The notes below the pieces were generated by a model. That model made no database searches. It had not been told where the DNA came from and was given only the letters and a program-made list of their open reading frames with translations. A stretch of 43,621 nucleotides of DNA from Bacteroidales bacterium. GTDB taxonomy: Bacteria > Bacteroidota > Bacteroidia > Bacteroidales > P3. A program made the translations under genes and the position numbers. Below, piece after piece: positions 12,964 to 41,522 of the stretch (positions are counted from its first letter, which is position 1; every line of letters begins with the position of its first letter). The stretch covers positions 1 to 43,621 of the forward strand of contig JAGBJI010000011.1 of NCBI GenBank assembly GCA_017934545.1, given 5' to 3'.

Positions 12964-13083
12964 TTTTCAGAAAAGAAAAATAAAAAACATATGTATTTTT
13001 TCAAAAAAACATATGAATTTTAATCAAAAAACATATGTTTTTGAAACGAAAAACATATGTTTTTTTTAAACGCTTTCTGAAAA
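12964..13083. repeat. Six-unit palindrome array on a 22-bp lattice (pfkA-gapA gap)
   Basis: Four copies of a palindrome centred on CATATG begin at 12988, 13010, 13032 and 13054, exactly 22 bp apart. Each is flanked by A-runs before and T-runs after (AAAAACATATGTTTTT type). On the same lattice, one step outside, are TTTTCAGAAAA (centre 12969) and its reverse complement TTTCTGAAAA (centre 13078). The array therefore has six units and is mirror-symmetric as a whole. It is about 190 bases upstream of pfkA. The rest of the 512-base gap holds the gapA terminator and no visible gene. A GCCGCCGCC-containing 13-mer at 12901 recurs at 19825. Confidence 0.85.
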
Positions 13084-13228
13084 GGATTTCTTCGAGGGCT
13101 GTCTATACTTATTCTAACGGCATTATGATTCAAAATACAAATCTGTCATTATTAACTATCCTCCAATCCACCGCTGACACAAACGTATTTTAATGCAGTA
13201 TTTATATTATCAATATCGGTATACAACA

Positions 13229-13272
13229 AAAAAAAAACGGCGGTAACTTTTGCAGTTAACCGCCGGTTTTTT
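13229..13272 (-). terminator. gapA terminator
   Basis: On the minus strand a G+C-rich hairpin (CCGGCGGTTAAC paired with GTTACCGCCG, with a one-base bulge) is followed by a run of at least nine T. It lies about 20 bases beyond the gapA stop. Confidence 0.85.
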
Positions 13273-13288
13273 AGTTTAAATTTTTTAT

Positions 13289-14296
13289 TTAGATAAGATT
13301 TGCCAATCTTTCTGCCAAATCGCAAACTCTGTTTGAGTATCCGTTCTCGTTATCATACCAAGAAACCACTTTAACAAAGTTTCCGTCCATAACCATTGTC
13401 ATTTGAGAATCAAATATTGAAGAATGATTGTTGCCGACTATGTCTATGGATACCAAAGGTGCCTCACTGTACTCAAGGATTCCCTTCATAGGTCCCTGTG
13501 CAGCCTCTTTGATTGCAGCGTTTACCTCTTCCTTTGTAACGGTTTTCTTCAATTCAACCACAAGGTCTACAACCGAACCGTCAGGAGTAGGAACTCTCAT
13601 TGAAATTCCGTCAAGTTTGCCTTTCAATTCAGGGATAACAAGTCCTACGGCTTTAGCAGCACCAGTAGAAGTTGGGATAATGTTGCATGCAGCAGCACGC
13701 GCACGTCTTAAATCTTTATGAGGTAAATCCAATATCTTTTGGTCGTTGGTGTATGAATGGACTGTTGTCATATATCCTTTCACTATTCCGAATTTATCGT
13801 TCAACACTTTGGCAACCGGAGCAAGACAGTTAGTGGTGCAAGATGCGTTGGAAACACATGTAACATCCTTTGTCAACACTTCATCGTTAACTCCCAAAAC
13901 AACAGTTGCGTCAACATCTTCAGCCGTTGCGGCAGGAACGGTCAAAATAACTTTCTTTGCTCCTGCGGCAATATGTTTACCCATTTTTTCTTTTGTCTTA
14001 AACAATCCCGTAGACTCTATCACTATGTCTATACCTAAATCTTTCCACGGCAAATTTGCAGGGTCTTTTTCTGCAAACACTCTTATCTTCTTTCCGTTTA
14101 CGATTAGATAATCGCCTTCCGACGATACTTCTGCATCAAATATGCCGTGTACCGAATCATATTTAAGCAAATGTGCCAATGTTGCGGCATCTGTCAAGTC
14201 GTTAATTGCCACAACTTCTACGTTTGTTTTTCTTTGTATGTTTCTGAAAGAGATTCTGCCGATACGGCCGAACCCGTTAATCGCTACTTTTACCAT
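13289..14296 (-). CDS. gapA: Type I glyceraldehyde-3-phosphate dehydrogenase
   Basis: GAPDH oxidises glyceraldehyde-3-phosphate to 1,3-bisphosphoglycerate with NAD. The 335-residue protein has the NAD motif INGFGRIGR (residues 6-14), the NAD-selecting Asp in INDLTD, the active site [17 protein letters not shown] with catalytic Cys, the catalytic His in [11 protein letters not shown], and the C-terminal [12 protein letters not shown]. All are intact. It has its own promoter and terminator and is probably monocistronic and highly expressed. Confidence 0.97.
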
Positions 14297-14347
14297 GATT
14301 ATATTTTATTTTTTATGTTAATAAACTGATAAATCATTAAATTTTTG

Positions 14348-40146: not shown

Positions 40147-41360
40147 TTCAAAAAATATATAAATTCAACCGTAAACCCTGTCACATATGCCGCAACCGCC
40201 GTCAGAGCCGCCCCCGTTATGTTGTACAGCGGTATAAGCACATAGCCTGCAACGGCGGTCACTGCCAAAGAGGCCAAAGAGGCACATGCCGTTATTGAAA
40301 AATTGCCCCGCGAGGCAAAATATTGGGTTATATTGCTTGATGTACTTAAAAACAAAATACCTGCGGACAATATACGCATGTAATACCCCACCCGTGCAAA
40401 ATCGTTTCCGAACAAAAACATCCAAAAACTCCCGGGCAGAACGCACACTATGCCCAACGCCAAGGCGGTAAACAATATGTTGACCTTGGTAAGTTTGATT
40501 GTCAGGTTTTTAGCCTCAACATTGCTCTGCGTGTTGCTCAACGACGAATATTGAACCAACGCCAGCGAAGTGCCGAACAACAACACCGCCTCGCATATGC
40601 CCGTAGCATTGGAATATATGCCGTTGTAAAACTCGCCCTTGGTACCGAAAAAATAAACCGTAAGCAACAACGACACGCGGTAAACCATGGTCTGGGCTAT
40701 GCTTCCCAACTGTTTGACCGCACCGAGTGAAAACAACGTGCGGCTTACTTGTCTGAACTCTTTTCGGTCTAAAAAATGCAGACCTTTGTAATCGTCTTTC
40801 AATATCCATATGCCGTAGAACAGGCTTAAAACATAGGCACACCAAAGCGAAAACACGTAATCGCCTATTGAAGAAAACCTTCCCGCCGCCCACATCAGCG
40901 AAATAACCACGGCATTGGTCAAAGGATAGACCAATTTCAGATTATTGGCTTTGACCACCTGCTGTTTGCCCAACAGTACATAGTAGTTAATCTCCGTTAT
41001 TGACGCCAAAACGGATATACCCACCGTCTGAAAAAAATACAGGCTCTGTCCGAACCGTGCAAATCCGCCGTTAAAAACTCCCAAAAATCCCGCCGCCGTT
41101 ATCAACGCAGCACAACTCAAAACCCACACCACAGAGGGAATGAACATCTGCGAAAACGTTTTTCTCGGTGTCAGATATACCAATGTGGAGTTGCCCATCA
41201 GGGTCATCAACAGCAATATTATGTTGATATTAAACACTATCATCGCCTGTTGTCCTTTGCCCGCCGCTCCCAAAAGATGTGACACCAGCACTATTACGGC
41301 AAATCCCACAACGGCACTGAAAAACTTGGTAAACAAAGTGTTCAATATCTTTTTAAACAT
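40128..41360 (-). CDS. Polysaccharide flippase (MOP/Wzx-like)
   Basis: A multi-pass inner-membrane protein of 410 residues with about 11-12 hydrophobic segments, in the MOP superfamily of lipid-linked oligosaccharide flippases. The N-terminal KKILNTLFTKFFSAVVGFAV, then SHLLGAAGKGQQAM, and later FGTKGEFYNGIYSNATGICE and GFNDFARVG-like FGNDFARVGYYM segments are typical. The ATG at 41358-41360 (MFKKIL) is chosen over an upstream frame extension that runs into the palindrome array. It may export O-antigen or capsule units. The promoter lies just upstream. Confidence 0.85.
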   Translation of the reverse strand: MFKKILNTLFTKFFSAVVGFAVIVLVSHLLGAAGKGQQAMIVFNINIILLLMTLMGNSTLVYLTPRKTFSQMFIPSVVWVLSCAALITAAGFLGVFNGGFARFGQSLYFFQTVGISVLASITEINYYVLLGKQQVVKANNLKLVYPLTNAVVISLMWAAGRFSSIGDYVFSLWCAYVLSLFYGIWILKDDYKGLHFLDRKEFRQVSRTLFSLGAVKQLGSIAQTMVYRVSLLLTVYFFGTKGEFYNGIYSNATGICEAVLLFGTSLALVQYSSLSNTQSNVEAKNLTIKLTKVNILFTALALGIVCVLPGSFWMFLFGNDFARVGYYMRILSAGILFLSTSSNITQYFASRGNFSITACASLASLAVTAVAGYVLIPLYNITGAALTAVAAYVTGFTVEFIYFLKWIKRD

Positions 41361-41383
41361 ATACCCGTCTTTGAAATAAACTG

Positions 41384-41417
41384 CAAAGATAACATATTTT
41401 TGTCTAATTAAAACAAA
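41384..41417 (-). promoter_or_regulatory. Flippase promoter
   Basis: On the minus strand TTTG (41414-41417) and TATCTTTG (41384-41391) are 22 bases apart, one more than the usual maximum, 24 bases before the ATG. Confidence 0.65.
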
Positions 41418-41439
41418 TCCTTTCCTAACTTTAAAACCC

Positions 41440-41522
41440 TGCAAAACCGTTTTACATCATTTGCAAAACCGTCTTGCAAGGTCTGCAAAACCGTTTTGCA
41501 ACCATTGCAAGACGGTTTTGCA
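41440..41522. repeat. Four-unit palindrome array on a 22-bp lattice (flippase-lipB gap)
   Basis: Four 17-bp palindromes are centred at 41448, 41470, 41492 and 41514, exactly 22 bp apart with 5-bp spacers. They read TGCAAAACCGTTTTACA, TGCAAAACCGTCTTGCA, TGCAAAACCGTTTTGCA and TGCAAGACGGTTTTGCA. In reverse complement they align unit by unit with the array at 29254-29336: by my count 4 of 68 unit positions differ, but 9 of 15 spacer positions do. The array lies in a divergent gap of 267 bases, which otherwise holds the two promoters. Confidence 0.9.

Follow-up and report, generated by a model that had tools for sequence, protein, structure and literature searches.

Palindrome arrays spaced at two helical turns, with lineage-specific sequence, in a gut Bacteroidales group

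The window, a stretch of 43,621 nucleotides from a Bacteroidales bacterium, carries runs of short palindromes between its genes, with centres two helical turns apart and letters that change from one place to another. This raises the question of whether such runs arise by chance in A+T-rich DNA and, if they do not, what kind of element they represent. The four arrays of the original prediction are present, at 12964-13083, 19837-19935, 29254-29336 and 41440-41522 (sites 1 to 4), and they are real and far above chance. When a lattice is required to have 3 or more of its 4 centres in register, each with 7 or more of 8 arm pairs, the window holds three lattices at period 22 (sites 1, 3 and 4) and one at 21, the remaining periods between 15 and 35 giving none. 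One hundred dinucleotide shuffles of the window gave no lattice at periods 20-24. Array-free intergenic DNA (49,594 bp concatenated, GC 0.325) gave none at periods 15-35, and 100 shuffles of it gave none at 21 or 22 and one at 23. Four further stretches of the genome, chosen blind to arrays (71,611 bp), contained seven lattices at 22 and a single one over all the other periods between 12 and 59. An enlarged sample, itself partly 22-bp-seeded, held 64 at 22 bp and at most 5 at each other period from 12 to 59, and two shuffles of it gave none at seven periods. The background in unrelated loci (1,082,372 bp) was a single lattice at 22, in a Paenibacillus. Thus chance, under which shuffled A+T-rich intergenic DNA should yield 22-bp lattices as often, is ruled out by the shuffles, the array-free intergenic DNA and the blind stretches.

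Families A, B, C, D and E of such palindromes occur in this genome. The four sites represent three of them, with sites 3 and 4 belonging to the same family, so that the predicted difference in sequence between sites is one between families A, B and C. The predicted fixed period of 22 bp likewise applies to these three, family E having a period of 21. None of the four arrays is coding, contrary to what had been listed among their contexts; a separate fifth array is. The combination of shared geometry and different sequence is genuine and is seen again in some relatives, whereas recognition of structure alone is unsupported, since the arms are strongly conserved within each family. E-like palindromes are also found at the ends of A and B elements and of some C elements.

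The features at site 1 are as follows.

12961..13086, minus strand: family A element, CATATG units at 22 bp, its 'sense' on the minus strand towards pfkA
11799..12776, minus strand: pfkA (6-phosphofructokinase), target of the element's 'sense'
13289..14296, minus strand: gapA (GAPDH), upstream of the A element

The centres at site 1 are 12969, 12990.5, 13012.5, 13034.5, 13056.5 and about 13078; the inner four units are CATATG and the outermost two another palindrome, the one at 13078 being weak. The lattice centres given for sites 1 to 4 score 6-8 of 8 pairs, except those at 13078, 19842, 19929.5 and 29262, which score below 6 and were placed by eye or from the unit start. The family A unit pair is matched 329 times genome-wide at up to 3 mismatches, against none for a reversed-pattern control. 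Among 43 oriented copies the core is strongly conserved and the outer palindromes semi-conserved; copies have position-specific unit variants and spacers in common, and near-identical ones stand at unrelated places in the genome. A elements are placed upstream of promoters in a fixed orientation. Of the 23 elements in tandem contexts, 21 have the same orientation relative to the next gene (one-sided binomial 3e-5), and the -7 box TANNTTTG is found 39 times in the 43 sense-downstream flanks and 4 times upstream. As these boxes lie downstream of it, the element is probably outside the transcript started there, and no promoter was recognised by eye within it. Replication direction is unlikely to set the orientation, since on contig C1 it changes over distances of a few kb. 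Inspection of the A flanks by eye revealed no obvious target-site duplication, and the search for empty sites among paralogous A flanks of this genome gave nothing decisive. C4 and C7 were rejected as strain variants, the 10 kb compared being 99.99% identical. The array at locus L033 was rejected as an ortholog of the gapA site, there being no pfkA match in the flanks, some of them short, of the 25 loci L031-L055.

Site 2 is occupied by a different element.

19829..19945, no strand assigned: family B element, convergent intergenic, three A6-N5-T6 (A-tract/T-tract) units at 22 bp

Its centres are about 19842, 19864, 19886, 19908 and about 19929.5, the A6-N5-T6 units being those at 19864, 19886 and 19908. 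With inner units scoring 7, 6 and 6 it falls just below the lattice rule. The spacers are palindromic too (T6...A6; 19875 with 8/8 and 19897 with 7/8), so the lattice can equally be described as one of 11 bp. The outer palindromes of this element are CTTTGCGAAAG and CTTTCGCAAG, and its inverted ends are GC-rich. Inverted ends are seen by eye in many B elements; in several copies they change together, by eye, as GCCGAACG/CGTTCGGC and GCCGATTC/GAATCGGC, although not in all (e.g. L225). Spacer length is fixed in family B and spacer sequence is free.

Sites 3 and 4 both belong to family C (GCAAAACNGTTTTGC).

29254..29336, no strand assigned: family C array (site 3), four units TGCAAAACNGTTTTGCA at 22 bp, the first degenerate
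29414..29869, plus strand: gene for an HU-HIG family DNA-binding protein, downstream of the site 3 array
41440..41522, no strand assigned: family C array (site 4), four units at 22 bp, divergent intergenic, upstream of lipB
41628..42299, plus strand: lipB, downstream of the site 4 array

The centres are 29262, 29284, 29306 and 29328 at site 3 and 41448, 41470, 41492 and 41514 at site 4. Here too spacer length is fixed, and spacer sequence differs between loci. The divergent gap at lipB measures 267 bp with the array and 92 bp in the congener G009, which has no array there. Ten proteins encoded next to C arrays were scanned and have unrelated functions. The family C pair had no match in genome_contigs or viral_contigs, nor had the exact A and E pairs in viral_contigs. 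BLAST of A against phages and of C against plasmids also gave no match, with the low-complexity filter on, which makes the result for A in phages a weak one, and with the organism's own records possibly left out.

The fifth array of the window, missing from the original four, lies inside a gene.

24485..24543, minus strand: family E array, three palindromes CTTTTCWGAAAAG at 21 bp (centres 24493, 24514 and 24535), in frame
23353..26703, minus strand: open reading frame with a Peptidase_C25 and a type IX secretion sorting domain, containing the E array

An E element is about 63 bp long and gives 7-residue repeats in the encoded protein. Such arrays are in frame in four open reading frames of this genome, those of C25, CoaX, an NTP-transferase and an epimerase; a fifth case, LptE, is doubtful, since a segment resembling a signal peptide follows the array, which may thus lie ahead of the true start. 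At the same codon position of the three genes compared between congeners (CoaX, C25 and NTP-transferase), congeners hold 21-bp arrays in lineage-specific sequence. These same-site dialect arrays appear clear for two dialects and weak for the third. The motif shared by this genome and G009 matches at 11-12 of 12 letters in all three genes here and in two of three in G009, whose C25 site has one partial unit only (9/12). The motif of G006 and G002 matches at 11-12 of 12 letters in all three genes of both species. In the orthologs of other species neither motif exceeds 9 of 12. The G001 dialect reaches 8-9 of 10 letters at the coding sites, where unrelated orthologs reach 8. The encoded peptides differ completely (FFSEKKKLFSEKDFFFSEN, LVLNTGEIVLNTDKLILNIS), which indicates that the DNA and not the peptide has been kept. 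The array-free C25 ortholog of G004 has a segment equal in length to that of this genome, so the array is not a net insertion of 63 bp; the NTP-transferase site lacks an array in G008 and G011. In a reverse test, an array in the MBL hydrolase gene of G006 was present only there and in its sister G002 among 10 orthologs, so some in-gene arrays are young. Its four units add only 9 residues (27 bp).

The same lineage specificity is seen genome-wide. In matches at up to 2 mismatches in N-free sequence (G002, G005, G006 and G012 contain N runs), TCTTTTCNGAAAAGA occurs 13.4 times per 100 kb in this genome and 14.9 in G009, TAATCAGNCTGATTA 16.5 times in G001 and 0-2.8 in the other 13 genomes, and TAGTGTTNAACACTA 24.0 times in G006, 8.8 in G002 and not at all in the other 12. 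The G002 figure reflects largely the same genes, 3 of its 5 matches lying in CoaX and C25. Some relatives have 21- or 22-bp arrays of other palindromes. The strict 22-bp lattice is missing in 9 of 13 congener samples, although one of these nine, G010, has a lattice in later stretches chosen around hits, and under a looser rule (6/8 pairs, 3/3) neither G010 nor G013 had an excess at 22. Together this describes a gut Bacteroidales group which carries many two-turn palindrome arrays, with nearly fixed spacing and lineage-specific letters.

Among the three options originally offered, putative sites for a dimeric protein fit best. The arrays would be double-stranded DNA sites in which each unit forms the dyad that a single dimer of a DNA-binding protein occupies; as the units recur at two helical turns, several dimers would be lined up along the same face of the helix, and may bind cooperatively. 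A fixed spacer length with a free spacer sequence, as in B and C, is what helical phasing requires. The arrays would ride in short dispersed repeat elements spreading within a genome, and the family sequence, or dialect, would be replaced lineage by lineage, so that the geometry persists at old sites while the letters change. The dialect might follow either the specificity of the protein or the self-copying element, and same-site arrays would descend from one ancestral array. On sequence evidence, this dimeric-protein lattice in dispersed, lineage-rewritten elements is the best reading, with about an even chance of being right. Several points count against it. The shared variants and spacers of A, and of the arrays in G127, whose copies likewise have position-specific unit variants and spacers in common, fit the copying of a master element, which needs no host binding site; the genes adjoining C arrays have no common function; and same-site arrays may result from repeated insertion at hot spots. 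The weak G001 dialect at the coding sites, the single partial unit of G009 in C25, the narrow spread of the MBL array, the concentration of the G002 matches in the same genes, the independence of changes in G127 units and the congener samples lacking the strict lattice also weigh against it.

The strongest rival, possible but doubtful, is that these are MITE-like mobile repeats of about 110-150 bp with inverted ends, whose tandem palindromes are bound by a putative transposase and which affect the host only incidentally. In its favour are the near-identical A copies scattered over unrelated places, the co-changing ends of several B copies, the imperfect inverted ends of G127 elements (both by eye), the filled and empty lipB gaps, the E arrays in four reading frames and the array-free NTP-transferase sites in G008 and G011. 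Against it, no target-site duplication is evident by eye in the A flanks, C-array spacers differ between loci, the array-free G004 segment of C25 is no shorter, the four-unit MBL array adds so little length, and dialect change at one site is unlike simple insertion. It is improbable that several paralogous regulators of the host (Lrp/AsnC-like wrapping dimers) use the arrays as operators or nucleoid-protein sites that evolved in place and do not move. Two-turn spacing is indeed a feature of Lrp-type regulators in the excerpted account of PMC2995911, and A stands upstream of promoter boxes in a fixed orientation; the spacers and position-specific variants that A copies, and likewise G127 arrays, have in common, arrays inside metabolic-enzyme genes and the lack of a common function among the scanned neighbours of C arrays speak against it. 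The earlier argument from context against a simple operator holds for C, with its unrelated neighbours, while A elements are oriented and stand upstream of promoters.

A structured RNA or single-strand hairpin (REP/RAYT-like, terminator-like or riboregulatory) is very improbable, even though every unit self-pairs and the centre letters vary in a loop-like manner in B, G009 and G127. The REP-type option loses ground as Y1_Tnp (PF01797) is found in 0 of 14 genomes of the genus, the control being positive in 5 of 14 named genomes. The C arms show 46 one-sided changes and 1 two-sided change against 4.6 expected under independence, thus no compensatory excess and no RNA-hairpin covariation; among the one-sided changes on the plus strand 22 are G.T and 24 other, without strand bias. 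G127 units have 2 two-sided changes, both compensatory, against 2.1 expected, with no departure from independence. The only Rfam match in the window at the gathering score is a tRNA, and fixed spacer length and promoter boxes downstream of A are further points against RNA. Signals for the uptake or recombination of DNA, written in species dialects as the DUS of Neisseriaceae are, would explain lineage-specific words in and between genes but are scarcely credible, the arrays numbering tens to hundreds and not thousands of single words.

If dimer sites in lineage-rewritten elements are the right reading, one DNA geometry has outlasted the turnover of its own sequence, at identical codon positions in conserved enzymes. 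Concerted evolution of dispersed bacterial sites would then become directly testable, and the co-varying dialect would offer a route to the putative DNA-binding protein. It would also serve as a warning that gene and protein annotations of these uncultured gut bacteria include in-frame repeat DNA. The oriented placement upstream of promoters suggests effects on the expression of many genes. More broadly, and only tentatively, with less than even confidence, the arrays may form an undescribed genome-wide lattice class of 21/22-bp dyads spanning two or more genera of a single Bacteroidales family, its dialect rewritten in concert at old orthologous sites, those within conserved enzymes included, and driven by a fast-changing, lineage-carried DNA-binding protein. 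Bacteria would then have an equivalent of concerted satellite or dialect evolution, the code lying more in the spacing than in the letters.

A number of parallels can be drawn with known systems, as these are described in the available portions of the sources. The portion of the open-access literature covered holds no description of 22-bp palindromic arrays, Lrp-like tandem sites or 21-bp palindromic tandem repeats as such a class. REP/RAYT systems (PMC3733652) share short dispersed palindromes, some inside genes, but the genus here is without Y1_Tnp in 14 genomes. PATEs of Haloquadratum (PMC3119063) are small palindrome-bearing elements, one with a 22-bp direct repeat; their palindromes, however, are near-terminal, related to IS605 ends and not a lattice. 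PARCELs (PMC2996958) are tandem coding repeats with dyad symmetry, built on a 25-residue protein motif, whereas 7-residue repeats of unconserved peptide lie in conserved enzymes here. DUS (PMC3630211) are likewise dispersed DNA words with lineage-specific dialects, while the present units are tandem dyads and far fewer in number. Lrp-type dimers reportedly bind at intervals of two or three turns (PMC2995911), and Lrp/AsnC operator arrays share several dyads at two helical turns, with DNA wrapping in Lrp; the arrays here, by contrast, are scattered in the form of repeat elements, some of them within coding DNA, with a putative binder. BrickBuilt, a MITE of Porphyromonas gingivalis (PMC4596501) with reported promoter activity, is also an intergenic Bacteroidales element in which short tandem units form a dispersed repeat with small inverted ends. 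Its elements of 84-991 nt consist of 23-nt units without spacers, in contrast to the periods of 21 and 22 here, and the main text uses no word beginning with 'palindrom'. Finally, Rickettsia palindromic elements (RPE; PMC10969869, a MITE review) are palindromic and dispersed, many of them in frame within unrelated genes, as E arrays also are in frame here; they are about 150 bp long with a conserved encoded peptide, while E consists of small dyads on a 21-bp lattice, about 63 bp in all, whose sequence and peptide differ between congeners at one and the same site.

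All four palindrome arrays of the original prediction exist with the spacing claimed for them. They lie, together with one array of 21-bp period, as follows:

12964-13083, family A array
19837-19935, family B array
24485-24543, minus strand, family E array of period 21, in frame in the C25-peptidase ORF
29254-29336, family C array
41440-41522, family C array

Under a fixed rule requiring at least three of four palindrome centres on the lattice (arms of 8, at least 7 pairs), the window contains three lattices at 22 bp, one at 21 bp and none at the remaining periods from 15 to 35. 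The arrays also stood up against shuffling, 100 shuffles of the window yielding no lattice at periods 20-24. Four blind stretches on other contigs (L228-L231, 71,611 bp) gave seven lattices at 22, all of them family A, one at 18 and none elsewhere between 12 and 59. A larger sample, 575,680 bp in 29 stretches that were mostly picked around 22-bp pattern matches and are thus biased toward this period, gave 64 at 22, five at 44, three at 33, three at 55, two at 21 and at most one at each remaining period from 12 to 59; two dinucleotide shuffles gave none at the seven periods tested. Control loci yielded one lattice at 22 in 1,082,372 bp, mostly from Paenibacillus and its kin (L056-L110), and one, L033, in a further 423,665 bp (L031-L055).

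The genome (2.377 Mb in 14 contigs, completeness 100, contamination 8.1), in which the window is one contig of 43,621 bases, has uncultured gut and rumen Bacteroidales, including Candidatus Onthomorpha, as its closest named relatives by GAPDH comparison. Two of its contigs, C4 and C7 (L114 and L120), are 99.99% identical across the 10 kb compared, with array pairs separated by 89,017 bp equally on each; the likeness is probably an assembly duplicate.

Several families were distinguished in this genome. Family A comprises four AAAAACATATGTTTTT units per array; its unit pairs match 329 times across the genome at up to three mismatches (reversed control 0), and 48 runs occur in the sample; 46 have four units and two have three, of which one or both may be clipped by a stretch end. 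Family B is A6-N5-T6 repeated three times, with 31 arrays in the sample; a reversed-register search returned 50 raw, unclustered matches, since B arrays fit both registers. Family C, TGCAAAACNGTTTTGCA, has 41 pair matches across the genome, the duplicated contig stretch included (control 0); 14 arrays were listed, including one duplicate, with four units in 12 of them, three in one and two in one. Family D, TTTCGGACNGTCCGAAA-like, was seen as a single four-unit array. The TTTCGGACNGTCCGAAA-like units at L126:1934, of a 22-bp family, have their ACNGT centre in common with family C. In family E, CTTTTCWGAAAAG, neighbouring matches less than 70 bp apart stand at exactly 21 in 12 cases and never at 20, 22 or 23. 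E-like palindromes flank A at 21.5 bp (left 10/20, right 13/20) and C at 21-22 bp (left 3/14, right 7/14, one duplicate included), in a scan that also matched unit edges at about 8 bp, and by eye they end most B arrays and D. The elements therefore have a common plan, in which an outer dyad at either end bounds three or four inner ones. In B elements (e.g. L223:13532, L114:15203, L115:15665) the inverted ends vary jointly by eye, GCCGAACG/CGTTCGGC versus GCCGATTC/GAATCGGC, like the paired ends of subfamilies.

Family A is oriented with respect to genes. By approximate, longest-ORF gene calls, tandem genes flank 23 of the 45 unique four-unit arrays, and 21 of the 23 are oriented alike relative to the downstream gene (12/12 on one strand, 9/11 on the other; one-sided binomial 3e-5); 12 others are divergent, four convergent, four overlap ORF calls and two are at an edge. 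The motif TANNTTTG, the Bacteroidetes -7 box, is enriched 20-60 bp upstream of starts (417 genes in this genome). In the 150-bp flanks of 43 oriented A arrays it occurs 39 times sense-downstream, four sense-upstream, 14 antisense-downstream and once antisense-upstream; A elements are thus placed directly upstream of predicted promoter boxes. Four roughly 100-bp stretches (L119:3129-3233, L223:17189-17290, L223:9912-10013, L125:16807-16907), which resemble one another at 81-89%, each lie sense-downstream of an A element. No such preference was seen among 31 B arrays (10 convergent, eight divergent, seven tandem, five in ORF calls of 82-110 aa, one without context), and the 10 proteins scanned, out of about 20 that neighbour C arrays, have unrelated functions. 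An HU-HIG DNA-binding protein gene (29414-29869) adjoins a family C array in the window, immediately downstream of it.

Some relatives carry such lattices with other sequences. The C pair was found in none of 60 relatives and in no record of genome_contigs or viral_contigs, where the genome's own records were possibly excluded; A occurs in one of the 60, G009, with cores CCTATG/CATAGG. Among congeneric species (G001-G013), strict 22-bp lattices number three in G001, eight in G009 and one in G013, being A-tract in G001 and G009, also CCTATG in G009, and CATAATGGCATTATG in G013. None appeared in the first samples of G002-G008 and G010-G012 (about 20 kb apiece for G003, G005 and G012); off-22 lattices were one at 21 in G006 and one at 27 in G007. 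Later stretches, picked around pattern matches, gave one in G010 (AAAATAANNNTTATTTT), three in G014, of a different genus in the same family (AAATAAACNGTTTATTT), and three in G127, the genome carrying L033 (TGATAATNNNATTATCA). Within the family, the B pattern has matches in 22 genomes out of 101: 312 matches in the window's genome (control 47), 186 (22) in G001, 73 (18) in G009, 10 (0) in G014, six (0) in G010 and 1-5 in each of 17 others, controls elsewhere reaching 7. The G127 pattern occurs in one of eight named genomes (47 matches, control 0). In this yak-cecum MAG, the TGATAATNNNATTATCA arrays at L033 and L232-L244 have 5-7 units each, and their centres and spacers are specific to the position.

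Family E dialects differ by lineage, neighbouring matches being spaced 21 bp or multiples thereof. At up to two mismatches, the CTTTTC type reaches 13.4 matches per 100 kb in the window's genome, 14.9 in G009 and 0.9-9.7 in others (the top value from a 20-kb sample); TAATCAGNCTGATTA reaches 16.5 in G001, against 0-2.8 in the 13 remaining genomes. TAGTGTTNAACACTA reaches 24.0 in G006 and 8.8 in G002 and has no match in the remaining 12, the samples including the CoaX and C25 loci, which supply three of the five G002 matches and few of those in G006. One long 21-bp array in G001 (L127:14599-14851, about 13 units) overlaps a 103-aa ORF call.

Arrays of different lineages stand at the same sites inside genes. 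E arrays lie in frame in four ORFs of the window's genome (C25 peptidase, CoaX, NTP-transferase, epimerase); the array of a fifth, LptE, comes before a segment resembling a signal peptide and may be located ahead of the true start. Three genes, CoaX, C25 and NTP-transferase, were compared among congeners, with G006 and G002, which are closely related sisters (94% for the MBL protein), treated as one lineage. At the CoaX site the window's genome and G009 have CTTTTC units, G006 and G002 the AGTGTTAAACACT palindrome and G001 21-bp repeats of AATCTGCG/AATCAGGCG type; no array was seen in the orthologs of G011, G013, G010, G007 and G005. At the C25 site the window's genome has CTTTTC, G006/G002 AGTGTT with one additional 7-residue unit, G001 three copies of TTAATCAGCGAT and G009 a single partial unit. 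Between DTGGG and LLHNVD of the NTP-transferase, the window's genome and G009 have CTTTTC, G006/G002 AGTGTT, G001 and G012 different 21-bp repeats and G004 a long insert with no clear units; G008 and G011 are without an array. Across 12 CoaX, 9 C25 and 9 NTP-transferase sites, the motif of the window's genome and G009 scores 11-12 of 12 letters at five of their six sites (9 at the sixth, C25 of G009) and at most 9 elsewhere, that of G006/G002 11-12 at all six of theirs and at most 9 elsewhere, and that of G001 8-9 of 10 against a background reaching 8. Conversely, the G006 array in an MBL hydrolase is present in G006 and G002 alone among 10 orthologs, the window's genome lacking it.

A tree from four proteins, with array columns masked and midpoint rooting assumed (supports 0.93-1.00), separates the window's genome, G001, G012, G004, G009, G006 and G002 from G010, G011, G013, G008, G005 and G007; coding arrays map onto the former group. 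Under this rooting CTTTTC reads as the older dialect, since both the deepest member and the nested G009 have it. The array-free C25 segment of G004 equals that of the window's genome in length, which suggests that the C25 array arose by overwriting in place.

Arm changes in family C are 46 one-sided and one two-sided, where 4.6 two-sided would be expected. Together with two-turn periods and spacers fixed in length but free in sequence, this speaks for the arrays being sites for dimers on double-stranded DNA. Those of the G127 units (43 one-sided, two two-sided, 2.1 two-sided expected) are neutral, neither for nor against such dimers. Position-specific variants shared among copies of A and of the G127 element appear to show that elements spread through copying. 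These data and the probable C25 overwriting point to dispersed repeat elements composed of dyad sites for a putative dimeric protein, the elements' dialect shifting from lineage to lineage.

No printed description of such an array class was found in searches of the openly accessible literature. The nearest known systems are RPEs, BrickBuilt, REPs, DUS dialects and Lrp operator arrays; as far as the accessible parts of their descriptions extend, none is shown to match on every membership feature. Lrp-like wrapping by the putative dimer may serve as a model, with no membership claimed.
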